From: Hydrogenophaga sp.
GTDB taxonomy: Bacteria > Pseudomonadota > Gammaproteobacteria > Burkholderiales > Burkholderiaceae_C
Length of the DNA stretch: 64,000 nucleotides
NCBI RefSeq assembly: GCF_026125785.1
Contig: NZ_JAHCKL010000006.1
Span: 1 to 64,000, forward strand
Direction of reading: 5' to 3'
Each line of letters starts with the position of its first letter. The stretch's first letter is position 1. The position numbers and the translations under genes are program-made. Positions 10,110 through 23,700 of the stretch are shown here, piece by piece. The notes beneath the pieces were generated by a model, which was not told where the DNA came from, made no database searches, and saw only the letters and a list, made by a program, of their open reading frames with translations.

Positions 10110-10134
10110 CATCTATTCGAAAAACGGATAGATG
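10110..10134. promoter_or_regulatory. Second inverted repeat in the EamA/LysR intergenic region
   Basis: CATCTATTC and GGATAGATG form 9-bp arms with one mismatch around a 7-nt A-rich centre. The right arm ends nine bases before the LysR ATG at 10143, so binding here could repress the regulator's own synthesis. Together with the repeat at 10084 it makes a two-site LysR arrangement. Confidence 0.45.
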
Positions 10135-10142
10135 TGCATACC

Positions 10143-11009
10143 ATGAACCATGCAGACCTGCAGCTCGACTGGCTGCGCGCCTTCGTCACCGTGGTCGACA
10201 GCGGGTCGCTGTCGGCCGCCGCCCCGCTGCTGCACCGCTCGCAGTCGGCTGTCAGCATGCAGCTCAAGAAGCTGGAAGACGCCGTGGGGCGGCCGGTGCT
10301 GCTGCGCGGTCCCCGGCACCTGGAGATCACGCCGGTGGGCGGCGAGTTGCTGGGCTACGCACGCCGCCTGTTGGCGTTGCATGGCGAAACGCTGGAGGCC
10401 CTGCACGGCCCCGTGCTCTCCGGCCAGGTGAAGCTGGGCGTGCCGGACGACTACGCCGCCACCTACCTCACGCCGGTGCTGCGCAGCTACGCCAGTCGCC
10501 ATGCGGGCGTGGAGATCGAGCTGCTGTGCGAGCAGTCCACCGCGCTCATCCCCAAGGTGCAACGCGGCGAGATCGACATCGCCCTGGTCTCGCGCGACAA
10601 ACCTTCGCGCGGCACCCTGCTGTTCCACGAGCCGCTGGTGTGGGTGGGTGCCGCGGCGTTCGAGGCCTGGCGGCGCGATCCGCTGCCGCTGGCGGTGTAT
10701 GAGCCCGCGAGCCTGGCCCGGCGTTTCACCATGGCCGCGCTCCACGCCCAGCGCCGCAGCCATCGGCTGGTCTACAACAGCTCCAGCCTGGCCGGGCAAC
10801 TGGCGGCGGTGGAAAGCGGGCTGGCGGTGGCGGTGCTCACCCGCTGCAGCGTGCCGGCGCACCTGCCCATCCTGGGTGAGCGGCATGGCCTGCCGCCGCT
10901 CTCTCACATGGAGGTGGCGGTGTACCGCAGCCAGGCCTCGCGCGGCCTGCCGGCGGTGGACGCGCTGTTCGAACAGATGGTGCAGACGCTGAATCGCCAA
11001 GGCCTCTGA
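10143..11009 (+). CDS. LysR family transcriptional regulator
   Basis: A 288-residue regulator with an N-terminal winged helix-turn-helix (residues 5-65, including LRAFVTVVDSGSLSAAAPLL and SAVSMQLKKLEDAVG) and a C-terminal periplasmic-binding-protein-like effector domain (from about residue 92, VKLGVPDDYAATYL). It most likely senses a small molecule and controls the divergent EamA exporter. The ATG at 10143 begins MNHADLQLDWLRAF, the usual LysR spacing; an in-frame GTG nine bases upstream is possible. The effector is unknown. Confidence 0.88.
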   Translation: MNHADLQLDWLRAFVTVVDSGSLSAAAPLLHRSQSAVSMQLKKLEDAVGRPVLLRGPRHLEITPVGGELLGYARRLLALHGETLEALHGPVLSGQVKLGVPDDYAATYLTPVLRSYASRHAGVEIELLCEQSTALIPKVQRGEIDIALVSRDKPSRGTLLFHEPLVWVGAAAFEAWRRDPLPLAVYEPASLARRFTMAALHAQRRSHRLVYNSSSLAGQLAAVESGLAVAVLTRCSVPAHLPILGERHGLPPLSHMEVAVYRSQASRGLPAVDALFEQMVQTLNRQGL

Positions 11010-11016
11010 TGGCATG

Positions 11017-11032
11017 CCAGGGTTAACCCTGG
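11017..11032. promoter_or_regulatory. 16-bp perfect palindrome upstream of acetoacetate-CoA ligase
   Basis: CCAGGGTTAACCCTGG reads the same on both strands. It sits 8 bp after the LysR stop and 92 bp before the ligase ATG. There is no T-run, so an operator is more likely than a terminator. The Crp/Fnr-type regulator two genes on is the obvious candidate to bind here, but this is inference. Confidence 0.4.
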
Positions 11033-11124: not shown

Positions 11125-13125
11125 ATGAAGGCATCAAGGCAGGAAGAGGGTTTTGGCGAACTGCTGTGGGCGCCGACGGCCGAAGCGGTCGCCGCCACCC
11201 GGCTGACGGACTTCCAGCGCTGGCTGGCGCGGGAACGGCATGTGACCACCACCGACTACGACAGCCTGTGGCGCTGGTCGGTCAGCGATCTGGACCGCTT
11301 CTGGAATGCGGTCTGGGACTACTTCGACGTGCAGGCCGAAGGCGATCGCACGCCGGCCATCGAGCACCCTGCGATGCCAGGCACGCGCTGGTTCCCGCGC
11401 ACCCGCCTGAACTACGCCGAGCACGTTTTCCGCATGGCCACGGACGCACGGCCAGCCTTGATCGCACGCTCGGAAAGCGCACCCGCGCAGGAGGTTTCGT
11501 GGCGCGAACTCAAGGACAGCACCGCCGCGCTGGCGGCCTGGCTGCGCGCGCAGGGTGTTCTGCCTGGCGACCGGGTGGCCAGCTACATGCCCAACCGCGT
11601 CGAGACCGTGGTGGCCTTCCTGGCCTGCGCGAGCATTGGTGCCATCTGGTCGAGTTGCGCGCCGGACATGGGCACATCCGTCGTGCTGGACCGCCTGCGG
11701 CAGATCGAACCGGTGGTGCTGTTCGCGGTGGACAGCCATGCCTACGGAGGCAAGTACCACGAGCGCATCCCTCAGGTGGACGAGCTGCTGGCCGCCTTGC
11801 CCAGCGTGCGCAAGGTGGTGCATGTTCCCGGGCCGCTGCCGCAGGGCCGGTCCATGGCGTGGCGCGACCGCGCCGCCTGGGCCGATTGCCTGGCGACGGC
11901 CGCGCCGCCCCAGTACACCCGCCTGCCGTTCGATCACCCGCTGTGGATCGTGTATTCGTCCGGCACCACGGGGCTGCCCAAGGCCATGGTGCACGGGCAC
12001 GGTGGCATCGTGCTCACGCACCTCAAGACCATGGCACTGCAGCACGACCTGCGTCCGGGAGACCGCCTTCTGTTCCTTGGCAGCACCGGCTGGATCGTCT
12101 GGAACCTGCAGGTGGGTGCCTTGCTCACAGGCGCATCCATCGTGCTCTACGACGGCCACCCTGCATGGCCCGATCCCCAGGCGCTCTGGCGCTTCGTCGA
12201 CGAACAGCGCGTGAGTCTCCTGGGTTGTGGCGCGGCCTACCTGATGAACAGCATGAAGGAGGGTCTGCGCCCGAGGGACTTCGCGTCCCTGGCCTCGCTG
12301 CGCGCGATCAACTCCACCGGGTCGCCCCTTTCACTGGATGCCTACCGCTGGGTCTACGAGGCGGTCAAGCCGGATGTGTGGCTGGCATCGATCAGCGGCG
12401 GCACCGACATCGCCTCGGGCTTCGTGGCCTGCGCCCCCACGTTGCCGGTGCACGCGGGCGAGATCCAGTGCCGCGAACTGGGCGTGGATGCCCAGGCCTT
12501 CGACGACGCCGGCCAACCGGTGACGGGCGAAGTGGGTGAGCTTGTCGTCACCCAGCCCATGCCCTCCATGCCGGTGCGGTTCTGGAACGACGATGGCATG
12601 CGGCGCTATCACGAGAGCTACTTCGAGATGTACCCAGGTGTCTGGCGCCACGGCGACTGGATCCGCTTCACCGAACGCGGCACGTGTGTGATCTACGGAC
12701 GATCGGACAGCACGATCAACCGGTTGGGCATCCGCATGGGCACGGCGGAGATCTACCGCGTGGTCGAAGAGATCGAGCAGGTGCGCGACAGCCTCGTGGT
12801 CGACCTGGAGTACCTGGGCAGGCCTTCCTTCATGCCCCTGTTCGTCCAACTCGCGCCCGGTGCGTCGCTGGACGATGCCCTGCGTCAGCGCATCCTGCAG
12901 CAGATCCGCACCAAGGCGTCGGCCCGGCATGTGCCGGATGCGGTCGTGCAGGTGGACGACATCCCACGCACGCTCAGCGGCAAGAAGATGGAAGTGCCGG
13001 TGCGCCGCCTGCTGCTGGGCGCGCCACCCGACAAGGTGGCCAGCCCCGACGCCATGCAGAACCCGGCCAGCCTGCATTTCTTTGTTCGGTATGCTGAGGG
13101 GCTGCAGTCCCATGCCACCGCATGA
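11125..13125 (+). CDS. Acetoacetate-CoA ligase (acetoacetyl-CoA synthetase)
   Basis: A 666-residue ANL-superfamily ligase that forms acetoacetyl-CoA from acetoacetate, ATP and CoA. It shows the adenylation motif YSSGTTGLPKAMVHGHGG, family-typical segments (GAIWSSCAPDMG; STGSPLS; FWNDD) and the C-terminal lysine segment PRTLSGKKMEVPVRRLL expected for the CoA-ligation domain. Length matches AacS enzymes (about 650-670). The ATG at 11125 gives the usual N-terminus; the frame continues 37 codons upstream without a better start. It opens a + strand gene set with a Crp/Fnr-type regulator and a biotin-dependent carboxylase, so acetoacetate or a close 3-oxoacid is probably the carboxylation product. 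Confidence 0.9.
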   Translation: MKASRQEEGFGELLWAPTAEAVAATRLTDFQRWLARERHVTTTDYDSLWRWSVSDLDRFWNAVWDYFDVQAEGDRTPAIEHPAMPGTRWFPRTRLNYAEHVFRMATDARPALIARSESAPAQEVSWRELKDSTAALAAWLRAQGVLPGDRVASYMPNRVETVVAFLACASIGAIWSSCAPDMGTSVVLDRLRQIEPVVLFAVDSHAYGGKYHERIPQVDELLAALPSVRKVVHVPGPLPQGRSMAWRDRAAWADCLATAAPPQYTRLPFDHPLWIVYSSGTTGLPKAMVHGHGGIVLTHLKTMALQHDLRPGDRLLFLGSTGWIVWNLQVGALLTGASIVLYDGHPAWPDPQALWRFVDEQRVSLLGCGAAYLMNSMKEGLRPRDFASLASLRAINSTGSPLSLDAYRWVYEAVKPDVWLASISGGTDIASGFVACAPTLPVHAGEIQCRELGVDAQAFDDAGQPVTGEVGELVVTQPMPSMPVRFWNDDGMRRYHESYFEMYPGVWRHGDWIRFTERGTCVIYGRSDSTINRLGIRMGTAEIYRVVEEIEQVRDSLVVDLEYLGRPSFMPLFVQLAPGASLDDALRQRILQQIRTKASARHVPDAVVQVDDIPRTLSGKKMEVPVRRLLLGAPPDKVASPDAMQNPASLHFFVRYAEGLQSHATA

Positions 13126-13152
13126 GGCCCGCCCACCCGCCCCTCCTCCGCC

Positions 13153-13857
13153 ATGACCCGCGCGCTCCACGTCCGCTCCGTCGAGCTTTCGATGGACGAC
13201 CTGCTCTCCGGCTCGATCTGGTTCAACCGGATGAGCGAGGCCGGACAGCGCCAGGTGCGCGCCGACATCATGGAACGCGCGCTGTCCACCGGCGAGACGC
13301 TGGGACACCACGGCGAGATGCAGCATCACTGGTTCGGCGTGATGGAAGGCCTTCTGAAGTGGTCGATCAACGCCGTCGATGGACGCACGGTCACACTCGG
13401 TGGCCAGTCGGTGGGCAGTTGGTTCGGCGAGGGCACGCTGCTGCGTGGCAAGCCGCGCAGTTCGGACATCGTGGCCCTGCGCCACAGCCGCGTGGCGATG
13501 CTGCCGTACGAGACCTTCGAGTGGCTGCGCCACCACGAGCCCGCGTTCGCCGAGTTCCTGCTGCAGCAGATCAACGAGCGCCTGCACTGGTTCATGGGCA
13601 ACATGGCCGCACACCGGCTGCTGGATGCGGACCGGCTGGTGGCGCGGGCACTCTGGGGTCTCGTTCACCCGCTGCTCAATCCGCTCGGGCTCAACCACCT
13701 CTTCATCTCGCAGGAAGAGCTGGCCAACCTGGCCACCGTCTCGCGGCAGCGCTGCAACGTGGCCCTGGTGGAGCTCAAGCGCGCAGGACTGCTGGAGCTG
13801 GAGTACGGCGCCATCACCATCCTGGACATGCAGGCCCTGCAGGACCGCGTGAGCTGA
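13153..13857 (+). CDS. Crp/Fnr family transcriptional regulator
   Basis: A 234-residue regulator: an N-terminal cyclic-nucleotide-binding-like beta barrel (about residues 20-135, including WSINAVDGRTVTLGGQSVGSWFGEG) and a C-terminal winged helix-turn-helix with SQEELANLATVSRQRCNVAL as recognition region. The Fnr iron-sulfur cysteine cluster is absent, so it is not an oxygen sensor of that type; the ligand is unknown. It lies 27 bp after the acetoacetate-CoA ligase and 141 bp before the biotin-carrier gene, and is probably the local regulator of this catabolic cluster. Confidence 0.88.
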   Translation: MTRALHVRSVELSMDDLLSGSIWFNRMSEAGQRQVRADIMERALSTGETLGHHGEMQHHWFGVMEGLLKWSINAVDGRTVTLGGQSVGSWFGEGTLLRGKPRSSDIVALRHSRVAMLPYETFEWLRHHEPAFAEFLLQQINERLHWFMGNMAAHRLLDADRLVARALWGLVHPLLNPLGLNHLFISQEELANLATVSRQRCNVALVELKRAGLLELEYGAITILDMQALQDRVS

Positions 13858-13906
13858 CGCGGCGCGACCACCGCCCGTGTGCGGTCGGTACTTTCCCGGG
13901 GTTCAA

Positions 13907-13924
13907 CTGTCGTTCCACTGACAG
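13907..13924. promoter_or_regulatory. Candidate Crp/Fnr-type operator before the carboxylase operon
   Basis: CTGTC and GACAG form an inverted repeat around an 8-nt spacer, 75 bp upstream of the biotin-carrier ATG. The flanking GGGGTTCAACTGTCGT resembles GGGGTCAAACGTCGT at 11031 in front of the ligase, as would be expected if one regulator served both promoters. Weak, pattern-based. Confidence 0.3.
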
Positions 13925-13998
13925 AAGCCGTTTCCCATTTCCGAAATCATTCGTCCCCGGCGCAGACAACGCGCCCTGACGAACCACAAGAGACCTCC

Positions 13999-14484
13999 AT
14001 GGACATTGACTTTGCCGAACTGGCCTCGCTGGTGACATTGCTGAAGGAAGCGGACTTCACCGAGTTCCGCTATGAAAAGGGCGAGGTGCGCATCGTCGTT
14101 CGGCGCGGCGACGAGCCCGCCAACGCGACGGGCACCACGGCCCCGCCAACCGCCGTACCCGCGGCAGCGCCCGCCAGGGCATCCCGGACGGCGCCGGCCG
14201 CCCCGGCAGCGGCAGCGGCCGCTCCCTTGCCGCCCGGCGCGCAGCGGGTGACGGCTCCGCTGCTGGGTACCTTCTACGCCGCACCCAAGCCCGGTGAAGC
14301 GCCGTTCGTGAAAGTGGGCGACCGCGTGGAGCCCGACACGGTGTTGTGCATCGTCGAGGTAATGAAGCTCATGAACTCGGTGCACGCCGGCTGCAGCGGC
14401 GTGGTGCTCGCCGTGCACGCCAGCAACGGGGACCTGGTGGAGTTCGGCCAGCCGCTGTTCAGCATCCAGGCCGGGAACGCCTGA
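13999..14484 (+). CDS. Biotin carboxyl carrier protein (AccB-type)
   Basis: A 161-residue AccB-type carrier: a short N-terminal domain (residues 1-40), an Ala/Pro-rich linker (45-80) and a C-terminal biotinyl domain. The biotinylation motif is EVMKLMN with Lys123 as the attachment site; PGEAPFVKVGDRV just before it is typical of AccB rather than of pyruvate-carboxylase carrier domains. Here it pairs with the following biotin carboxylase and a pyruvate-carboxylase-type transferase instead of AccA/AccD. Its stop overlaps the biotin carboxylase start (TGATG). The ATG at 13999 is chosen for family agreement; the frame runs 40 codons further upstream. Confidence 0.9.
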   Translation: MDIDFAELASLVTLLKEADFTEFRYEKGEVRIVVRRGDEPANATGTTAPPTAVPAAAPARASRTAPAAPAAAAAAPLPPGAQRVTAPLLGTFYAAPKPGEAPFVKVGDRVEPDTVLCIVEVMKLMNSVHAGCSGVVLAVHASNGDLVEFGQPLFSIQAGNA

Positions 14485-15848
14485 TGGCGGCGCAGCAAGT
14501 CTTCGTGGCCAACCGCGGCGAGATCGCGCTGCGCGTGATCGAGGCCTGCGACCGCCTGGGCGTGCCCACGGTGCTGGGTGTTTCGCAGGCCGACCAGGAC
14601 ACGCTGGCCGCGCGCCGCGCCAGCCGCACCGTGGTGCTGGGGCCGGCCCGCGCATCGCAGAGCTACCTGTCGCTGGACACTGTGGTGCATGCCGCGGTGG
14701 AGACCGGTTGCACGGCGGTGCACCCAGGCTACGGCTTCCTGTCCGAGCGCGCGGACTTCGCGCGGCTGTGCGCGCAGAACGGCCTGACCTTCGTCGGCCC
14801 GAAGCCCGAGCACCTGGAGACACTGGGTGACAAGCTCAGCGCGCGGCGCGTGGCGGAGTCGGCCGGCGTCCCGGTATCGCCCGGCGGCCCCACCGCCACC
14901 CGCGCGGAAGGATTGGCCGTCGCGCAGCGCATCGGCTACCCGGTTCTGGTGAAGGCGGCCTTTGGCGGCGGCGGCCGCGGCATGAAACGGGTCGACGACG
15001 CGAGCGAGTTCGAGGCCGCATGGGAACTGGCCTCGTCGGAGGCTGCGGCGTCGTTCGGCGATGGCACCGTCTTCGTGGAACGTTTCGTTCGCAACGCCAA
15101 GCACGTCGAGGTGCAGATACTGGGCGACACGCACGGCCACCGAATCCACCTGGGGGAGCGCGAGTGCTCGGTGCAGTACCGCTACCAGAAGATGATCGAG
15201 GAGGCGCCGTGCACCGCCCTGACGCCACAGGCGCGAGAACGGTTGCACGCGCATGCCTTGCGCATCGCCGATGAGATCGGCTATGTGAGCCTGGGCACGG
15301 TGGAGTTTCTCTACGACGTGGAACGCGACGCGCTGTGTTTCCTTGAGGTGAATCCTCGCGTGCAGGTCGAGCACCCCGTGACCGAAGCCGTCACCGGCAT
15401 CGACCTCGTGCGCGAGCAACTCCTGGTGGCCTTCGGAGAACCGCTGAGCGTGCGCCAGGAAGACGTGCATCTGGACGGCCATGCGGTGGAGCTGCGCCTC
15501 ACCGCACAGGACCCCTCGCAATCGCTGCGGCCGTCACCGGGCCGCCTGGTGCGCTGGCGCCCCCCGGCGCTGGGCGGCGTTCGCTGGGACACGCACCTGT
15601 ACGAAGGCTATCTCTTCCCGCCGTACTACGACGCGCTGATGGCCAAGGTCATTGCGTACGGGGCGGACCGCGACGCGGCATTGGCGCGGCTGCGAAAGGC
15701 CCTGGCGCGGTTGGACCTGCAGGGCCCGACGACCAATCTGCCGCTGCTGCGCGCCCTGCTGAATGCACCCGAGGTGGTGCACAACACCGCCAGCACCCGC
15801 TGGCTGGAAGACGCCTTGCCTGCGCTGATGGCGGGAGACATGCCATGA
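14484..15848 (+). CDS. Biotin carboxylase subunit
   Basis: A 454-residue AccC-type biotin carboxylase that carboxylates carrier-bound biotin using bicarbonate and ATP. Features: N-terminal FVANRGEIALRVIEA, the ATP-grasp glycine-rich loop KAAFGGGGRGMKRV at about residues 156-170, HVEVQILGDTHG, and the bicarbonate/biotin region EVNPRVQVEHPVTEAVTGIDLVREQL. Length is normal for a stand-alone subunit. The start at 14484 overlaps the carrier stop, and its own stop overlaps the carboxyltransferase start (ATGA), so the three are translationally coupled. It is a second, dedicated copy, because AccC for fatty acid synthesis normally sits with accB elsewhere. Confidence 0.92.
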   Translation: MAAQQVFVANRGEIALRVIEACDRLGVPTVLGVSQADQDTLAARRASRTVVLGPARASQSYLSLDTVVHAAVETGCTAVHPGYGFLSERADFARLCAQNGLTFVGPKPEHLETLGDKLSARRVAESAGVPVSPGGPTATRAEGLAVAQRIGYPVLVKAAFGGGGRGMKRVDDASEFEAAWELASSEAAASFGDGTVFVERFVRNAKHVEVQILGDTHGHRIHLGERECSVQYRYQKMIEEAPCTALTPQARERLHAHALRIADEIGYVSLGTVEFLYDVERDALCFLEVNPRVQVEHPVTEAVTGIDLVREQLLVAFGEPLSVRQEDVHLDGHAVELRLTAQDPSQSLRPSPGRLVRWRPPALGGVRWDTHLYEGYLFPPYYDALMAKVIAYGADRDAALARLRKALARLDLQGPTTNLPLLRALLNAPEVVHNTASTRWLEDALPALMAGDMP

Positions 15849-17338
15849 CCGACGTGCGCCTGATCGATGTCTCCCTGCGGGACGGCAACCAGAGTCTGTG
15901 GGGGGCGGTGGGCGTGCGCACGTCCACCGTGCGGCGCATGGCCCCGCTGATGAACACCGTGGGCTACCACGCGGCCGAAATCGCCACCAGCACGCTGCTG
16001 GCCACGGCTGTCCGCTACCACCAGGAAGATCCCTGGGCGCGCATCGACGCCATGCGCCAGGCGGCACCGGACACGCGGCTCGGCTTCCTCACCACCGGCA
16101 AGCGGTTCATCAGCTTCTCGCGCACCCCGGCCAACCTGTTCCAGCTGGCGTTCGACCTGCTGCGCCGCCACGGCGTGACCCGCATGTGGGTCATCGATCC
16201 GATGCACGACATGGCATCGGCCATGGAGACCGCGCGCATGGCCAAACGGGCCGGCTTCGAAGAGGTGGTTGGAGGTCTCTGCTACACCGTCAGTCCGGTG
16301 CACACCGACGCCTACTTCGCCGAGAAGCTGGCGCAGTTCGACGGCTGCGAAGCCATCGACAGCATCTACATCAAGGACCCCGCGGGTCTGCTGACGCCGG
16401 AGCGCCTGCGCACCTTGCTGCCCACGCTGCGCTCAGGCCTGCGGCACAAGGCCATCCAGGAACTCCACACCCACTGCAACACCGGCCTGGCACCGCTGAC
16501 GCTGCTGTGCGCGGCCGACATGGGCGTGAACCACCTGCACTGCGCGCTGCCCCCGCTGGCCGACGGCGCCTCCCATGCATCGGGTCTGCAACTGGTGGCC
16601 AATCTGCGCGCACGCGGCCACCGCGTGGACGTGGACCTGGACGCCATGCAGCGGGCCAGCGACGCGCTGCGGCGCGAGGCCACGCTGCGCGGTCTGCCCG
16701 AGGGCAGGCCCATGGCCTACGACGAGTCTTACTACCGCCACACGCTGCCGGGCGGGGTGCTCAGCACCACCCGGCGGCAGTTGGCGGAAATGGGCCGCGC
16801 CGACCTCATGCCCGCCGTCATCGAGGAGGCCGTGCAGGTGCGCGCCGATCTGGGCTGGCCCATCGTGGTCACACCCTTCGCGCAGTACATCGTCACCCAG
16901 GCCGCCCTCAATGTGATCGCGGGTGAACGCTACCGCCAGGTCAGTGACGAAGTGGTGGACATGCTGCTGGGCGACTGGGGCGAGATGCCGGGTCCGGTCG
17001 ACGGCGCCTTGCTGGACCGCGCCCGCCAGTCACCACGTGCCAGGGCCCGGCCAGCCGACCCCGCAGAGCCGCCCAGCCTGGACGCGCTGCGCGCTCGCCT
17101 GGGCAGCGGCCTCAGCGACGAAGACCTGCTCCTGCGCGCACTCATGCCTGCCGGGCAGGTAGACGCCATGGTGAGCGAGCGCGGGCGGGCGCAGCGCCTG
17201 CAGGCAACGGGCCAACCCGCGGGTCTGGCCGACCTGGCCCGCGCCCTGGGTGACCGCCAGCGCCCACTGTCCATCGCCATCACCCAGGGCAGCACCACCT
17301 GGGCCCTGAGCGGCAGCCGCCAGGGCAAGCCGCACTGA
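15845..17338 (+). CDS. Pyruvate carboxylase/oxaloacetate decarboxylase-type carboxyltransferase
   Basis: A 497-residue HMGL-like TIM-barrel carboxyltransferase. The metal site is seen in IDVSLRDGNQSLWG (residues 7-20) and ELHTHCNTG, and the active-site lysine segment is IKDPAGLL. This protein moves CO2 from carboxybiotin to an organic acceptor. It has no attached biotinyl domain; the carrier is encoded two genes upstream. Where pyruvate carboxylases have a GxTSQP segment with a catalytic threonine, this protein reads ADGASHASG, so pyruvate may not be the acceptor. With acetoacetate-CoA ligase and a PEP-synthase-like pair in the same operon, a ketone enol (phosphate) is my preferred acceptor. 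Pyruvate or another 2-oxoacid remains possible. Confidence 0.82.
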   Translation: MTDVRLIDVSLRDGNQSLWGAVGVRTSTVRRMAPLMNTVGYHAAEIATSTLLATAVRYHQEDPWARIDAMRQAAPDTRLGFLTTGKRFISFSRTPANLFQLAFDLLRRHGVTRMWVIDPMHDMASAMETARMAKRAGFEEVVGGLCYTVSPVHTDAYFAEKLAQFDGCEAIDSIYIKDPAGLLTPERLRTLLPTLRSGLRHKAIQELHTHCNTGLAPLTLLCAADMGVNHLHCALPPLADGASHASGLQLVANLRARGHRVDVDLDAMQRASDALRREATLRGLPEGRPMAYDESYYRHTLPGGVLSTTRRQLAEMGRADLMPAVIEEAVQVRADLGWPIVVTPFAQYIVTQAALNVIAGERYRQVSDEVVDMLLGDWGEMPGPVDGALLDRARQSPRARARPADPAEPPSLDALRARLGSGLSDEDLLLRALMPAGQVDAMVSERGRAQRLQATGQPAGLADLARALGDRQRPLSIAITQGSTTWALSGSRQGKPH

Positions 17339-17351
17339 GGAATCCGACCCC

Positions 17352-18245
17352 ATGAACGACCCCATGAAACCCACTCCCTGGACACCCCCCGCGTCGTTTG
17401 CCAGCGTCGTGCCCGCGCTGGTGCAGGCCGATGGCTGGATGCTCGACGTGGATGGCTGCCTGGTGCGCACCAGCCAGGCTGGCGGCTCCGGCGGCAGCGC
17501 CATCGAAGGCGCGGCCGAGCTGCTCGGCTGGCTGCGCCGCCACGGCAAGGACGTCGTGGTCTGCACCAACGCCTCGCAACGGCCGGTGCGCACCTACGCT
17601 GCCCACCTGCGGGCGATCGGCCTGGACGTGGCCGACGAGGACATGATGACCGCGGCCACCGCGGCGGCCGACCACATCGCCACCCACCACCCCGGCGCGC
17701 GCGTGCTGGTGGTGGGCGACGAAGGCCTGCGCGAGGCGGTGAGCGAGCGTGGCCTGGTGCTGGCGGACCCTCGGGACACCGATGCCGACGTGGTGGTGGT
17801 GGGTGCCGCAGACAGTTTCCAGTCCGCCCACCTGAACGGCGCCTGCCTGTCGATCGCGGACCACGGCGCGCCGCTCTATGTGTCCGTGGACACGCCGTGG
17901 TTCCATGGCGGCGTGAAACGGTCCGTGGCCTCGTCGTCGGCCATCGCCATGGCCATCAGCGCCGTGACCGGCGTGCGCGCCCAGGTCTGCGGCAAGCCAT
18001 CGCAGGCCATCGGCGAGGTGCTGCGCAGGCGCCTGGGCGGCGCTGGCCGCCGCCTGGTCGTCGTCGGCGACATGGCATCGATCGAGGTCCAGCTCGCCCA
18101 CCAGATGGGTGCGCTGGGCGTGTTGGTGATGAGTGGCGGTACCTCGATGGAACAACTGCCCCATCTGCCGCCCGCGCACAGGCCCGATTGGGTCGGGCGT
18201 GACGTGGGCGAACTGGTTCAACAACTGAAGGCCGTGCAGGCCTGA
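17352..18245 (+). CDS. HAD superfamily (subclass IIA, NagD-like) hydrolase
   Basis: A 297-residue haloacid-dehalogenase phosphatase. Motif I is LDVDGCLVR with nucleophile Asp32 and general acid Asp34; motif II lies in VVVCTNASQRP; the C-terminal motif region is CGKPSQAI with GDMASIEVQLAHQMGA. The cap arrangement is that of NagD/p-nitrophenyl-phosphatase-like members, which dephosphorylate small phosphoesters. It lies inside the carboxylase/phosphotransferase operon with GAGGAATCC ahead of the start, so it may remove a dead-end or excess phosphorylated intermediate. The substrate is not predictable from sequence. Confidence 0.85.
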   Translation: MNDPMKPTPWTPPASFASVVPALVQADGWMLDVDGCLVRTSQAGGSGGSAIEGAAELLGWLRRHGKDVVVCTNASQRPVRTYAAHLRAIGLDVADEDMMTAATAAADHIATHHPGARVLVVGDEGLREAVSERGLVLADPRDTDADVVVVGAADSFQSAHLNGACLSIADHGAPLYVSVDTPWFHGGVKRSVASSSAIAMAISAVTGVRAQVCGKPSQAIGEVLRRRLGGAGRRLVVVGDMASIEVQLAHQMGALGVLVMSGGTSMEQLPHLPPAHRPDWVGRDVGELVQQLKAVQA

Positions 18246-18263
18246 CCGACAGGAGACAAGACC

Positions 18264-20090
18264 ATGACAGACCGATCCAAGCGTTTCGCGTTCTTCCACG
18301 AAGCCAAGGCCCCGGCCGGCGCCGAGGGCTGGGAACGCATGTACCCCTATTTCCTCACCTCGCAACCTGAAGGCCGCCCCTCGGAAGACCAGCGGTTCTG
18401 GTTCGCCGACTCCATGCACTGGTCGCGCGCGGTACATCCGTTCGACAGCATCGGCGCCGAGGCCGTGTACTACGGCTGCGGCGTGAACGGCGCGCGCAGC
18501 ATCGTGCTGCCCGCGGCGCTGGGCCTGGACGTGCGCATGGTCAACGGCTATGTCTACATCTGCCCCATGCCGGTCACCGACCCGGCCGAGATCGAGCGCC
18601 GCCTGGGCATCTTCCAGGAGCGCGCGGGCCACTACTACAAGAACTGGGACCACCTGTACGCCCAATGGAAAGAGAAGATGACGGTGGTGGTGCGGCGCAT
18701 GAAGGCACTGCGCTTCGAGCCGCTGCCGGAGATCGAGCCGATCGAGGTGGTCACGGAAGGCAAGGGTCGCTCGGTGTCCTGGGACCTGGTGGAAAACTAC
18801 CACCGGCTCGTCAACGACTTCTTCCTGGTCTGGCAGTACCACTTCGAGATGCTGGGCCTGGGCTATGGCGCCTACCTGGTGTTCTTCGATCTCTGCAAGC
18901 GCGCCTTCCCCGAGATCCAGGACCAGACCATCGCCCGCATGGTGGCCGGCGTGGAAGGCATCGCCTTCAGGCCCGACGATGAGTTGCGCCGCCTGGCCAA
19001 GCTGGCGGTGGAACTCCAGGTGGACGCGGGGCTGACGGTGCGCGGAGATGCCGACGACATGCTCGCCGGCCTGCGCGCCACGCCGGCCGGCGTGCGCTGG
19101 GTGGAAGCCTTCCACGCAGTGCGCGACCCCTGGTTCAACTACTTCGCGGAGTACGGCTTCCTGCACGACCAGGAAACCTGGAACCAGAACCTCTCGATCC
19201 CGCTGCAGGGCATTGCGCGCTACATCGAGCTGCTGCGCGCAGGCGAGGACATCGACCGGCCGATCGCCAAACTTCACGAGGACCGGGACGAGATCGCCGC
19301 CGAGTACCGCGCGCTGCTCGCGCCCGAGGAAGTGGGACCGTTCGACGAGGCCCTGGCGCTCTCGCGCAATGTCTTCCCGTACATCGAGGAGCACAACATC
19401 TACGTCGAGCACTGGACGCACTCGGTGTTCTGGGAAAAGGTGCGCGACCTGGCGGGCGTGTTCGTGAAGGCGGGCTTCTTCCAGCAGGAGAGCGACCTCT
19501 ACCACCTCAACCGCTTCGAGCTCGACCAGGCCCTGTTCGACATGGTGGAGTCCTGGGCCATCGGCGTGCCCGCGCGCGGCGTGCAGCACTGGCGTGGAGA
19601 GATCGCGGCGCGGCGCAAGATCATGGCGGCGCTGCGCTCGACAACCGCCGCACCGGCCTATGGCATGCCGCCCAGCGAAGTGACCGACCCCTTTGCCATC
19701 ATGAACTATGGCGTCACCACCGAGCGGGTGCAGGAATGGCTGAGCCAGTCGGGCGAAGGCGCAAGCAGCCGGCTGCAAGGCATTCCTGCTTCTCCCGGCG
19801 TGGTGGAAGGCGTGGTGCGCGTGATCCGGCACGAGGACGAGCTGAGCCAGTTGCAGCCGGGCGAGATCCTGGTCGCGGCGATCACCGCGCCGTCCTGGGC
19901 GTCGGCGTTCTCCACCATTTCAGGCGTGGTCACGGACATCGGCGGCATGATGAGCCACGCGGCCATCGTCTGCCGCGAATACGGCATGCCTGCGGTGGTC
20001 AGCACCGGCTTTGCCACGGCCCGCCTGGAGAGCGGGCAGCGGGTCCGCATCGACGGGTACAAGGGCACGGTCATGCTGATGGACGCATGA
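18264..20090 (+). CDS. PEP-synthase-like phosphotransferase subunit, phenylphosphate-synthase alpha type
   Basis: A 608-residue protein. Its last 100 residues are a PEP-utilising mobile domain with phospho-acceptor His565 in GGMMSHAAIVCREYGMPAVV. The first 500 residues are a Trp/Tyr-rich region seen in two-component PEP-synthase relatives such as phenylphosphate synthase, whose large subunit is also about 70 kDa and uses a histidine near 569. The C-terminal pyruvate/PEP-binding TIM barrel of true PEP synthase is missing, which argues against pyruvate as substrate. An AGGAGAC site precedes the ATG. The next gene supplies the ATP-binding half. Predicted role: transfer of the beta-phosphoryl group of ATP, through His, to an enol or phenol hydroxyl. 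Confidence 0.8.
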   Translation: MTDRSKRFAFFHEAKAPAGAEGWERMYPYFLTSQPEGRPSEDQRFWFADSMHWSRAVHPFDSIGAEAVYYGCGVNGARSIVLPAALGLDVRMVNGYVYICPMPVTDPAEIERRLGIFQERAGHYYKNWDHLYAQWKEKMTVVVRRMKALRFEPLPEIEPIEVVTEGKGRSVSWDLVENYHRLVNDFFLVWQYHFEMLGLGYGAYLVFFDLCKRAFPEIQDQTIARMVAGVEGIAFRPDDELRRLAKLAVELQVDAGLTVRGDADDMLAGLRATPAGVRWVEAFHAVRDPWFNYFAEYGFLHDQETWNQNLSIPLQGIARYIELLRAGEDIDRPIAKLHEDRDEIAAEYRALLAPEEVGPFDEALALSRNVFPYIEEHNIYVEHWTHSVFWEKVRDLAGVFVKAGFFQQESDLYHLNRFELDQALFDMVESWAIGVPARGVQHWRGEIAARRKIMAALRSTTAAPAYGMPPSEVTDPFAIMNYGVTTERVQEWLSQSGEGASSRLQGIPASPGVVEGVVRVIRHEDELSQLQPGEILVAAITAPSWASAFSTISGVVTDIGGMMSHAAIVCREYGMPAVVSTGFATARLESGQRVRIDGYKGTVMLMDA

Positions 20091-20125
20091 CCCAGGCCAC
20101 CGCGCGCACCACGACAGGAACGTCG

Positions 20126-21175
20126 ATGAACACCATCACCACAGCATTCGAGCACGCCCAGGCGCTGGACAAGCGCCTGGTGGGCGGCAAGGCCCACGGC
20201 CTGGCGACCATGGCCCAGGCCGGCATACCCGTGGCGCCAGGCTTTGCCGTGACCACGCAGGCCTACGAGGCCTACCTGCGCCACACCGGTCTGGACCAGC
20301 GGCTGGCGCAGGCGCTGGGCCGTGTCGACCGGGAGGCCCTGGGCGCCCTGGAGGCCTGCGCCCGCGAGGTGGAGGCGTGGTTCGACGAAGTCCCGCTGCC
20401 CGACGGCTTGATGGCTCCCCTGGCCCAGAGCTATGCCAGCCTGTGCCAGGCGCTGCAGATGACCGACGTGTCCGTCGCCGTGCGCTCCAGCGCCACGGCG
20501 GAGGACTCGGCCGGCGCCAGCTTCGCGGGCGAGTACGAGACCTTCGTCGGCCTGCGCGGCATCGCCGAAGTGGAGCGGCACCTGCGGCGCTGCTGGGCCA
20601 GCGCGTTCTCGGCGCGCGCCCTGACCTATGCCTGGAAGAACGGCATCGATCCGCTGGCGGTGGACATGGGCGTGGTGGTGCAGAAGACCGTCCATGCGCG
20701 CGCCGCGGGTGTGATGTTCACCGTCAGCCCCGTCACCGGCGACCGCTCGCGCATCGTCATCGAGGCGTCCTATGGGCTGGGGCTGGGCGTGGTCGGTGGC
20801 GACGTCACGCCGGACCGCTTCGTGGTGGCCAAGGTGGAGGGCCATGTGATCGAGCGGGTGCTGGGCGACAAGCACATCGAATACCTCAGCGGCCAGCAGG
20901 CCACGCCGGTGGACGACGAACGCCGCGCCCTGCTGTGCATGGACGACGCCGAACTGACCGCTCTGGCCAAGGTGGGCAAACGCCTGGAACGCCTGCACGG
21001 AGCGCCACAGGACATCGAGTTCGCCCTGGACCGCGAGCTGCCTCGCGGAGACAACATCGTCCTGCTGCAATGCCGCCCGGTGACCGTGCTGCCTGACCGC
21101 AAGGCCCCTGGCCGGGCGGCGGACGATGCGCTGATGCGCTTTGCCAGCGGCGTGCTCAGCGCCGCCTCGCGCTGA
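20126..21175 (+). CDS. PEP/pyruvate-binding (ATP-grasp) subunit, phenylphosphate-synthase beta type
   Basis: A 349-residue protein equal to the N-terminal ATP-binding half of PEP synthase: LVGGKAHGLATM near the N-terminus, SVAVRSSATAEDSAGASFAGEYETF, and the C-terminal GAPQDIEFALDRE with LLQCRPVT. It should phosphorylate the catalytic histidine of the preceding protein and release AMP and phosphate. Size (about 38 kDa) matches the 40-kDa subunit of phenylphosphate synthase. The ATG at 20126 has AGGAACG upstream; an in-frame ATG at 20087 overlapping the previous stop (ATGA) would add 13 residues. It closes the operon, two bases before the stop of the convergent alpha-E gene. Confidence 0.82.
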   Translation: MNTITTAFEHAQALDKRLVGGKAHGLATMAQAGIPVAPGFAVTTQAYEAYLRHTGLDQRLAQALGRVDREALGALEACAREVEAWFDEVPLPDGLMAPLAQSYASLCQALQMTDVSVAVRSSATAEDSAGASFAGEYETFVGLRGIAEVERHLRRCWASAFSARALTYAWKNGIDPLAVDMGVVVQKTVHARAAGVMFTVSPVTGDRSRIVIEASYGLGLGVVGGDVTPDRFVVAKVEGHVIERVLGDKHIEYLSGQQATPVDDERRALLCMDDAELTALAKVGKRLERLHGAPQDIEFALDRELPRGDNIVLLQCRPVTVLPDRKAPGRAADDALMRFASGVLSAASR

Positions 21176-22148: not shown

Positions 22149-23588
22149 TCAGTCTTCGAGAATCCAGGTGTCCTTGGTACCGCCGCCCTGTGACGAGTTG
22201 ACGACCAGCGAGCCTTCCTTGAGCGCCACCCGCGTGAGGCCGCCGGGCACCATCTGGACCTCCTTGCCGGACAGCACGAAGGGCCGCAGGTCGATGTGGC
22301 GCGGCGCGACGCCGCTCTGGACATAGGTGGGACAGGTGGAGAGCGAGAGCGTGGGCTGGGCGATGTAGCCACCGGGGTTGGCGACCACGGCCTTGCGGAA
22401 GTCCTCGATCTCGGCCTTGGTGGAGGCCGGGCCGACCAGCATGCCGTAGCCGCCGGCACCATGCACCTCCTTGACCACCAGGTCCTTGAGGTGGGCCAGC
22501 ATGTACTTGAGGTCCTCGGGGTCGCGGCCCATGTAGGTGGGCACGTTGTTGAGGATCGGTTTCTGCCCCAGGTAGTGCTCGATCATCTTGGGCACGTAGG
22601 GGTAGATGGACTTGTCGTCCGCCACGCCCGTGCCCACCGCGTTGCAGATCGCCACGTTGCCGCTGCGGTACACGCCCAGCAGGCCGGCGCAGCCCAGCGT
22701 GGACGTGGGGCGGAACACCAGCGGATCCAGGAAGTCGTCGTCCACGCGCCGGTAGATCACGTCCACGCGCTTGGGGCCGCGCGTGGTGCGCATGTAGACA
22801 AAGTTGTCCTTGACGAACAGGTCCTGCCCTTCGACCAGTTCCACGCCCATCTGCTGCGCCAGGAAGGCGTGCTCGAAATAGGCGCTGTTGTACATGCCGG
22901 GAGTCAGCACCACCACGGTCGGCTCGGCCGTGGTGGCGGGGCTGACCGCGCGCAGGGTTTCCAGCAACAGGTCGGGGTAGTGGGCGACCGGGGCCACGCG
23001 GTTCTCGCCGAAGAGTTCGGGGAACAGGCGCATCATCATCTTGCGGTCTTCCAGCATGTAGCTCACGCCGCTGGGCACGCGCAGGTTGTCCTCCAGCACG
23101 TAGTACTCGCCCACCCCGTCGCTGTTGGGCGCGCGCACGATGTCGATGCCGGAGATGTGCGAGTAGATCTGGTTCGGCACGTCCACACCCATCATCTCCG
23201 GGCGGAACTGCGCATTCTGGAAGATCTGGTCGGCCGGGATGATGCCGGCCTTGATGATGTCCTGTTCGTGGTAGACGTCGTGGATGAAGCGGTTGAGCGC
23301 CGTCACGCGCTGGACCAGGCCTTCTTCCATGCTCCGCCATTCGTCGGCGGGGATGATGCGGGGAATCAGGTCGAAGGGAATGAGCCGCTCGGTGCCGGAG
23401 CCGTCCTCGTCCTTGGCGCCGTACACCGCGAAGGTGATGCCGACGCGGCGGAAGATCATCTCCGCCTCCTCCCGCCGGGCGGCCATCACATCGTCGGGCT
23501 GCTGAGCCAGCCAGCGCGCATAGTTCTGGTAGTGGGCCCTGACCTCGCTGGGCGAGGCGTTCATTTCGTCAAACATCGGTCTGCTCAT
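22149..23588 (-). CDS. Circularly permuted type 2 ATP-grasp protein
   Basis: A 479-residue predicted ligase with a circularly permuted ATP-grasp fold. Family-typical stretches are FAVYGAKDEDGSGTERLIPF, LEDNLRVPSGVSYMLEDRK, GVELVEGQDLFV, VDVIYRRVDDDFLDPL and HGAGGYGMLVGP. Such proteins are predicted to join amino groups to carboxylates in peptides or peptide-like metabolites with ATP. The ATG at 23588 has GGAG eight bases upstream. It forms a two-gene operon with the alpha-E protein. A second, fused version is encoded at 31383. The substrate is unknown. Confidence 0.88.
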   Translation of the reverse strand: MSRPMFDEMNASPSEVRAHYQNYARWLAQQPDDVMAARREEAEMIFRRVGITFAVYGAKDEDGSGTERLIPFDLIPRIIPADEWRSMEEGLVQRVTALNRFIHDVYHEQDIIKAGIIPADQIFQNAQFRPEMMGVDVPNQIYSHISGIDIVRAPNSDGVGEYYVLEDNLRVPSGVSYMLEDRKMMMRLFPELFGENRVAPVAHYPDLLLETLRAVSPATTAEPTVVVLTPGMYNSAYFEHAFLAQQMGVELVEGQDLFVKDNFVYMRTTRGPKRVDVIYRRVDDDFLDPLVFRPTSTLGCAGLLGVYRSGNVAICNAVGTGVADDKSIYPYVPKMIEHYLGQKPILNNVPTYMGRDPEDLKYMLAHLKDLVVKEVHGAGGYGMLVGPASTKAEIEDFRKAVVANPGGYIAQPTLSLSTCPTYVQSGVAPRHIDLRPFVLSGKEVQMVPGGLTRVALKEGSLVVNSSQGGGTKDTWILED

Positions 23589-23700
23589 GGGCTTTTTCTC
23601 CTGCCCACAGCATAGCAAGGACCGGGCCAGGGCCGATGGCTGCCGCCTCCTTCAACGGCCTTCCATCGGGAAGAACCCGCGCGAGCCCGGGTTCCTCAAG

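Follow-up and report, generated by a model that had tools for sequence, protein, structure and literature searches.

A probable new branch of the Hpe kind: a candidate operon for phosphate-dependent carboxylation of phenolic methyl ketones in Hydrogenophaga sp.

An eight-gene dikinase and biotin carboxylase operon

The stretch under study (the window) comprises positions 1–64000 of one contig of a Hydrogenophaga sp. assembly of 4.17 Mb. At 11125–21175 it carries eight operon genes, all on the + strand, which run in the order ligase–Crp–BCCP–BC–CT–HAD–HpeH–HpeI in the list of open reading frames (ORFs). The initial annotation had named this set with its strand, order and overlaps, and the ORFs and Pfam bear it out: Pfam families score above their cut-offs and back each of the eight assignments. 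The genes are:

11125–13125, + strand: acetoacetate–CoA-ligase-like acyl-CoA ligase of the HpeE/AcsA1 kind (TIGR01217)
13153–13857, + strand: Crp/Fnr-family regulator (Pfam)
13999–14484, + strand: biotin carboxyl carrier protein (BCCP) of the HpeC kind, biotin site VMKLM (Pfam, NCBIfam, motif)
14484–15848, + strand: biotin carboxylase (BC), 454 residues (Pfam; NCBIfam matches below cut-off)
15845–17338, + strand: carboxyltransferase (CT) of pyruvate-carboxylase fold, 497 residues, with RDGNQ, IKDP and HTHCN (Pfam, motifs, tree)
17352–18245, + strand: HAD-IIA phosphatase of the HpeD kind, DVDG motif (Pfam, motif)
18264–20090, + strand: dikinase large subunit of the HpeH/PpsA/CreH kind, 608 residues (Pfam, NCBIfam, model, motif)
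20087–21175, + strand: dikinase ATP-grasp subunit of the HpeI/PpsB/CreI kind, 362 residues (Pfam PPDK_N, 312.6 bits)

BCCP and BC overlap by 1 base, BC and CT by 4, and HpeH and HpeI by 4; the gaps are 13 bases (CT–HAD), 18 (HAD–HpeH), 27 (ligase–Crp) and 141 (Crp–BCCP). The motifs VMKLM, RDGNQ/IKDP/HTHCN, DVDG and TDIGGMMSH are all intact, and the three CT motifs presumably have a functional role. In NCBIfam, the ligase scores 810.3 bits with TIGR01217 (cut-off 520.9), the BCCP 134 bits with TIGR00531 (cut-off 115.2) and the 608-residue protein 938.8 bits with NF006153, a family named 'hypothetical protein' (cut-off 578). The best NCBIfam matches of the BC, CT, HAD, Crp and PPDK_N proteins fall below their cut-offs, as is expected of unusual family members.

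The pair is a two-component dikinase

The large subunit, HpeH, contains a substrate domain and a swivel domain, the latter with the phospho-histidine motif TDIGGMMSH and its His565. By sequence, solved chains of PEP synthase, PPDK, rifampin phosphotransferase (RPH) and PTS enzyme I align to this protein only within residues 495–607, and the 362-residue protein matches ATP-grasp domains of solved chains. In Pfam, the only families are PEP-utilizers for one protein of the pair and PPDK_N for its partner. An AlphaFold2 model of the 608-residue protein (23 rows, mean pLDDT 89.4) aligns over 601–654 columns to the six listed RPH entries, with TMq 0.44–0.63 and rmsd 7.3–16.3 Å, and to PPDK rows with TMq of 0.15–0.16. 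The restricted matches, the RPH-like model and the low PPDK scores together identify the pair as a two-component small-molecule dikinase of the HpeHI/CreHI/phenylphosphate-synthase kind, which lacks the pyruvate-binding barrel of PEP synthase. HpeH has likewise been related to RPH in the literature (PMC12167813). The initial annotation had called the pair split PEP-synthase-like and likened it to phenylphosphate synthase. The second comparison holds as regards the two-component kind, and a split PEP synthase is ruled out by domain content and fold, the PEP/pyruvate-binding (TIM-barrel) domain being absent. PpsAB (phenylphosphate synthase) and CreHI share the two-component dikinase and its phospho-histidine swivel domain with the window pair, and they fall outside its clade.

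The gene grouping is conserved in a patchily distributed clade

A search of genome contigs for related loci gave 372 confirmed candidates, and the counts below rest on the best 80 of these 372 together with named additions. The window clade comprises 29 of 103 HpeH rows (support 1.0): the window, 27 loci (L029–L055) whose HpeH is 59–80% identical to that of the window, and a locus of Aromatoleum strain EbN1 (L174). Within the stored flanks of these 29 loci we found BCCP at 23, BC at 24, CT at 24, HAD at 26, HpeI at 28 and the ligase at 16. BC, CT, HAD, HpeH and HpeI are contiguous in all 23 CT-bearing clade loci other than the window (one of them, the cut locus L054, is without HpeI). With CT at 24 and HAD at 26 of the 29 loci, and with this contiguity, the grouping is not due to chance. 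The Crp gene was present at only one clade locus besides the window (2 of 29 in all), and its counterpart in Eoetvoesiella caeni (75% identical) lies directly downstream of the orthologous operon.

Five clade loci are without CT: L031 and L055 lie on cut contigs, L038 has a partial CT, and two Actinophytocola loci, L050 and L051, have a dikinase of the same clade and no carboxylase. The L050 dikinase sits among genes for a ketosynthase III, a ketosynthase, a UbiA-like protein (below cut-off) and a HAD protein, and because of these neighbours it is possibly put to biosynthetic use. Among 53 other, non-clade loci, CT was found within the flanks in 4, and a cytochrome P450 at least 45% identical to that of the Rhodococcus oxybenzonivorans dikinase locus in 32.

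Loci of this sort raise the alternative that the dikinase serves another phenol, as CreHI and phenylphosphate synthase do, and merely neighbours a carboxylase that takes the unphosphorylated ketone. The two Actinophytocola loci favour it, as do the likely 4-hydroxyacetophenone operons of EbN1, P. putida YC-AE1 and pBAR1, which have a carboxylase and a HAD gene and no HpeHI within the 16–40 kb examined. Against it, HAD, HpeH and HpeI are contiguous with the carboxylase at 24 of the 29 loci, and of the five exceptions two lie on cut contigs; the characterised carboxylase HpeCBA of Rhodococcus rhodochrous GD02 acts only on phosphorylated ketones (PMC9618137). We regard a dikinase with a separate role as very unlikely.

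Window-type operons occur in beta- and alphaproteobacteria and in actinobacteria. Their distribution is patchy, since none of 23 searched relatives within the window's genus has a full-length HpeH homologue. Eoetvoesiella caeni (L029, L141) carries both carboxylase types in one genome, with a window-type CT (75%) and a 4-hydroxyacetophenone-type CT (47%), which suggests different substrates for the two.

Relation to the Hpe pathway and a proposed route

In the Hpe pathway of R. rhodochrous GD02, HpeHI phosphorylates the ring hydroxyl of 4-hydroxyacetophenone or acetovanillone as ATP is converted to AMP (PMC9618137, PMC12167813), HpeCBA carboxylated only the phosphorylated ketones (PMC9618137), and HpeD, a HAD enzyme, dephosphorylates the carboxylated product (PMC9618137, PMC12167813). 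These kinase, carboxylase and phosphatase steps were assayed, and HpeE (AcsA2-like), the proposed maker of the CoA ester, and HpeF are proposed to carry out the final steps (PMC9618137, PMC12167813). For sequence comparison with GD02 we used Rhodococcus JS3073 (L202) and Rhizobium pRlBT01c (L201), which share the hpe synteny. As an aside on nomenclature, PMC9618137 gives 57.4 kDa for HpeA and 49.3 kDa for HpeB, and here BC has 454 residues and CT 497; the A and B labels for biotin carboxylase and carboxyltransferase in that paper may be swapped.

The window shares with hpeHICBADEF the two-component dikinase, the three-part biotin carboxylase, the HAD phosphatase and the acetoacetate–CoA-ligase-like HpeE. 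It thus has the dikinase with a swivel-domain histidine and RPH-like domain, and the three-part carboxylase and HAD gene in one operon, that mark the Hpe kind. The gene order differs, being ligase–Crp–BCCP–BC–CT–HAD–H–I in the window and H–I–BCCP–BC–CT–HAD–ligase–HpeF in hpe. Identities of the window proteins to the JS3073 and Rhizobium stand-ins are 41–46% for CT, 43–45% for HpeH and 36–38% for HpeI, and HpeF, which belongs to the hpe cluster, has its relative in the window genome on another contig. Judged against these stand-ins by its separate CT and HpeH clades and its other gene order, the window operon is not a GD02-type Hpe operon in the narrow sense.

We consider it likely that the operon's substrate is a hydroxyphenyl (phenolic) methyl ketone, 4-hydroxyacetophenone for example, which its enzymes carboxylate in a phosphate-dependent manner, making it a new branch within the Hpe kind. 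What was determined directly is the gene content, with domains, motifs, conservation and phylogeny; each reaction below, like the phenolic substrate, is assigned by homology. The ATP-grasp subunit would load the β-phosphate of ATP onto His565 in the large subunit, and the swivel domain of the latter would transfer it to the phenolic hydroxyl, with ATP yielding AMP and Pi. Biotin carboxylase and BCCP would produce carboxybiotin, CT would carboxylate the α-methyl group of the phospho-aryl ketone, and the HAD enzyme would strip the phosphate to give an aryl β-keto acid. The ligase, which we infer to activate this acid, would form its CoA ester. Cleavage of that ester to acetyl-CoA and a hydroxybenzoate would fall to a hydrolase of the CouO/HpeF type, whose gene lies elsewhere in the genome.

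The initial annotation had proposed that dikinase, biotin carboxylase and acetoacetyl-CoA-synthetase-like ligase form one ketone-carboxylation route apart from AcxABC and acetophenone carboxylase, and this stands. AcxABC and ApcABCDE resemble the proposed route in that an ATP-dependent ketone carboxylation precedes CoA activation; they are hydantoinase-type and biotin-independent (PMC5214803), whereas by Pfam the window operon has no hydantoinase-type gene. The enol phosphate of the initial annotation fares less well, since the characterised relative phosphorylates a phenolic hydroxyl and a HAD enzyme removes the phosphate after carboxylation (PMC9618137, PMC12167813), and the HAD gene is kept at 26 of 29 loci. 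Nor is the route undescribed, as had been thought possible: the Hpe pathway has been in print since 2022, as has, according to PMC9618137, the homologous acv pathway of Sphingobium SYK-6. A route that combines a kinase with a biotin carboxylase and differs from Acx and Apc therefore exists and is already published, with the phosphate on the ring hydroxyl and not on an enol. Our comparison indicates that two or more distinct lineages of carboxylase work by phosphorylation followed by carboxylation, and the window branch would add enzymes for lignin-derived aromatic ketones.

Partner genes favour a phenolic aryl ketone

Several of the partner genes also occur in 4-hydroxyacetophenone pathways and point to a phenolic ketone. 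An HpeF-type amidohydrolase 50–59% identical to the Rhizobium hpe-type gene is found at 11 of 29 clade loci; the Rhizobium gene itself is 56% identical to that of JS3073 and 60% to that of YC-AE1. A short-chain dehydrogenase/reductase (SDR) gene 49–52% identical to the R-HPED gene of EbN1, whose enzyme produces 4-hydroxyacetophenone (PMC11242144), is present at 3 of 29. PDB 4URE aligns with the EbN1 R-HPED gene along all 248 of 248 residues (538.5 bits), and we infer from the old name, ChnA, that 4URE is R-HPED; the Georgenia SDR has 4URE as its top solved match at 268 bits, the next two scoring 238 and 236. At 2 of 29 loci there is a BKACE gene 60% identical to the one beside the carboxylase of S. 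bisphenolicum, which, like P. putida YC-AE1, we take to be a bisphenol A degrader. The window genome has an HpeF relative, 57–58% identical to the Rhizobium gene and 74% to that of YC-AE1, beside an AMP-binding ligase, and a PobA scoring 691.5 bits (cut-off 538.7).

The same partner genes bear on the small ketone of the initial annotation, in which isopropenyl phosphate or a similar compound made from acetone or butanone would be carboxylated to acetoacetate and converted to acetoacetyl-CoA. In its favour, the ligase passes the acetoacetate–CoA ligase equivalog cut-off (TIGR01217), and we recognised no Acx-type enzyme in the genome: two Hydantoinase_B matches lie in ORFs of 1249 and 585 residues, sizes that fit oxoprolinase and hydantoinase proteins better than the Acx β subunit, which has ca. 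720 residues (PMC5214803). The ligase name, however, says little about the substrate, since hpe-type and 4-hydroxyacetophenone-type clusters have ligases that likewise bear the name acetoacetate–CoA ligase or are close relatives of it; the window ligase shares 44–48% identity with its counterparts in the Rhizobium hpe-type, EbN1, A. toluclasticum and P. putida YC-AE1 clusters. The partner genes near this operon type elsewhere belong to aromatic, aryl ketone catabolism, and among the annotated genes of the window flanks, which are only some of those present, none suggests ketone formation. We hold a substrate of the acetone or butanone type to be very unlikely.

EbN1 and the 4-hydroxyacetophenone operon

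The XccABC/HacABC 4-hydroxyacetophenone carboxylase operon of EbN1 shares BCCP–BC–CT–HAD and an AcsA-type ligase with the window, and its CT is 43–47% identical to the window CT. We take this known operon to be the one at about 0.19–0.20 Mb of the chromosome of genome G048. We regard that genome as A. aromaticum EbN1 on account of its other EbdA copy, which shows full identity to PDB 2IVF across 976 residues. No match to HpeH or HpeI was found by tblastn (E 1e-4) in EbN1 chromosome positions 178000–216900, nor to HpeH by hmmsearch. This is at odds with PMC9618137, where, with reference to its supplementary figure, the EbN1 xcc genes are said to cluster with hpeHI homologues; among the EbN1 matches listed, HpeH and HpeI occur together only at a locus at 3.43 Mb. 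We also examined whether the window operon is the orthologue of the known EbN1 operon and reject this, as that operon belongs to another CT clade and no HpeHI was found in it; the orthologue lies at 3.43 Mb.

Where HpeHI was not found, the EbN1 operon has a UPF0261/Tm-1-like ATP-binding gene. Such genes occur in the likely 4-hydroxyacetophenone operons at L198:2709–3947 (EbN1), L203:5972–7204, L204:5883–7130 and L141 at about 11237; they are 54–59% identical in four comparisons, with no HpeHI within the stretches examined, and may represent a non-homologous kinase replacement.

Aromatoleum loci and the enol-phosphate alternative

The operon type occurs in 2 of 17 Aromatoleum genomes, those of A. 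toluclasticum (G040; L048/L135) and EbN1 (G048; L174/L175). These loci are the nearest kin of the window operon in a studied organism, with BCCP–BC–CT–HAD–HpeH–HpeI 59–79% identical, and unlike the window they adjoin ebdABCD, a Ped-like SDR gene and a thiolase gene, with no Crp gene found. A badly truncated EbN1 CT fragment was left out of the identity comparison, and the ORF at L048:4184–5209, which has no family, runs in a different frame from the thiolase gene there. The second EbN1 module, at about 3.42–3.45 Mb, comprises the ligase, MMPL/DUF1329/DUF1302 genes, BCCP–BC–CT–HAD–HpeHI, the SDR, ebdABCD and the thiolase. The crystallised EbdA and its ebd set lie at 1.39–1.42 Mb, about 20 kb from hydantoinase-type genes that are probably apc; the Apc label (L189, L199) reflects order, size and weak similarity. 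We found no described study of the window clade or of the second EbN1 locus, nor any function assigned to that locus, in the literature searched, a scope that excluded supplementary figures and most subscription papers.

Several observations weigh against a phenolic substrate for the window operon. Both Aromatoleum operons adjoin ebdABCD and the Ped-like SDR, in two different gene orders, and this set supplies acetophenone, a non-phenolic ketone whose ring bears no hydroxyl and which would require an enol phosphate. The XylR-type regulator of A. toluclasticum at L048:14343–16142 has Val and Leu at the positions that we align, in our own reading of the sequences, with the His and Trp that anchor the phenol hydroxyl in CapR/EtpR-type sensing (PMC10715001). 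In the window genome the HpeF gene lies outside the operon, and PobA is above cut-off in only 3 of 6 operon-bearing genomes searched (the window's and 2 of 5 others). In an IQ-TREE tree of 37 CT rows (34 different), the 24 window-type CTs fall on one side of a branch with support 100/100, where there is also a long-branch warning, apart from the hpe-type rows (L201, L202) and the likely 4-hydroxyacetophenone-type rows (L197, L203, L204, L141). The HpeH tree places hpe-type rows with PpsA-like rows (support 0.811). The HpeI tree differs and counts for the phenolic reading, since there the window clade takes in the two hpe-type rows (support 0.907). The window does not group with PpsA, as 16 Aromatoleum PpsA-like rows form their own clade (support 0.999), the PpsA-like label reflecting solely the occurrence of the gene in 16 of 17 Aromatoleum genomes. 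Conservation within HpeH counts both ways: the window clade keeps 105 positions near-invariant across the PpsA-like, other and hpe-type rows, which favours the phenolic reading, but 26 otherwise near-invariant positions fall below the 90% criterion there, and 10 positions are clade-specific (e.g. E296, I379 and N481). Since CT and HpeH branch apart from both the Hpe and the 4-hydroxyacetophenone types, the window operon may act on a different substrate.

In an alternative reading, the dikinase would act on a non-phenolic aryl ketone (acetophenone, propiophenone or a ring-substituted relative) and convert it to its enol phosphate. This would then be carboxylated by the biotin enzyme, and the HAD enzyme would either take off the phosphate or dispose of dead-end enol phosphate. 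The ebd neighbourhood in two gene orders, the separate position of the crystallised EbdA and the probable apc genes, and the Val/Leu regulator all favour it. Furthermore, an etpR mutant of EbN1 shows no anaerobic growth on p-ethylphenol or 4-hydroxyacetophenone (PMC4630880), which means that under those conditions the 3.43-Mb locus is no substitute for the 4-hydroxyacetophenone pathway. Against this alternative, the ligase and thiolase of the 3.43-Mb locus share 78% and 83% identity with their counterparts in the EbN1 4-hydroxyacetophenone operon, and the other of the two XylR-type regulators in the A. toluclasticum cluster retains both His and Trp. Ethylbenzene dehydrogenase also accepts 4-ethylphenol, HpeH is without a pyruvate/PEP domain, and the HAD phosphatase would be superfluous if the phosphate departed during carboxylation of an enol phosphate. 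The assignment of acetophenone as substrate from the ebd neighbourhood is weakened by the same ligase and thiolase identities and by the shared partner genes. Overall we judge an enol phosphate of an aryl ketone unlikely and prefer phosphorylation of a phenolic hydroxyl. If the enol phosphate were true, it would be a third, convergent way of carboxylating inert ketones, beside Apc and Acx. As the EbN1 orthologue lies beside a second ethylbenzene dehydrogenase set, phenol and enol phosphorylation can be directly distinguished in that organism.

Features around the operon

Two features precede the ligase gene:

10134–11009, + strand: LysR-type regulator gene (ORF), beside the cluster and of uncertain membership
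11017–11032, no strand: 16-bp perfect palindrome CCAGGGTTAACCCTGG, in the gap that separates the LysR and ligase genes

The LysR label is our assumption from reading the translation. Crp/FNR-like consensus sites were absent from the two window stretches and the one stretch of the Eoetvoesiella caeni locus that were scanned, and the palindrome is the sole standout of the operator search. It has one match within the window at up to 2 mismatches, where 0.02 are expected, and it is possibly an operator or part of a terminator. G+C content is 0.688 in the operon and 0.679 and 0.673 in its flanks. Some of the flank genes are annotated, and 4 of 10 ORFs tested there are without a Pfam family. Next to the operon, on the opposite strand (22152–23618, − strand), lies an ordinary gene for a circularly permuted ATP-grasp type 2 protein.

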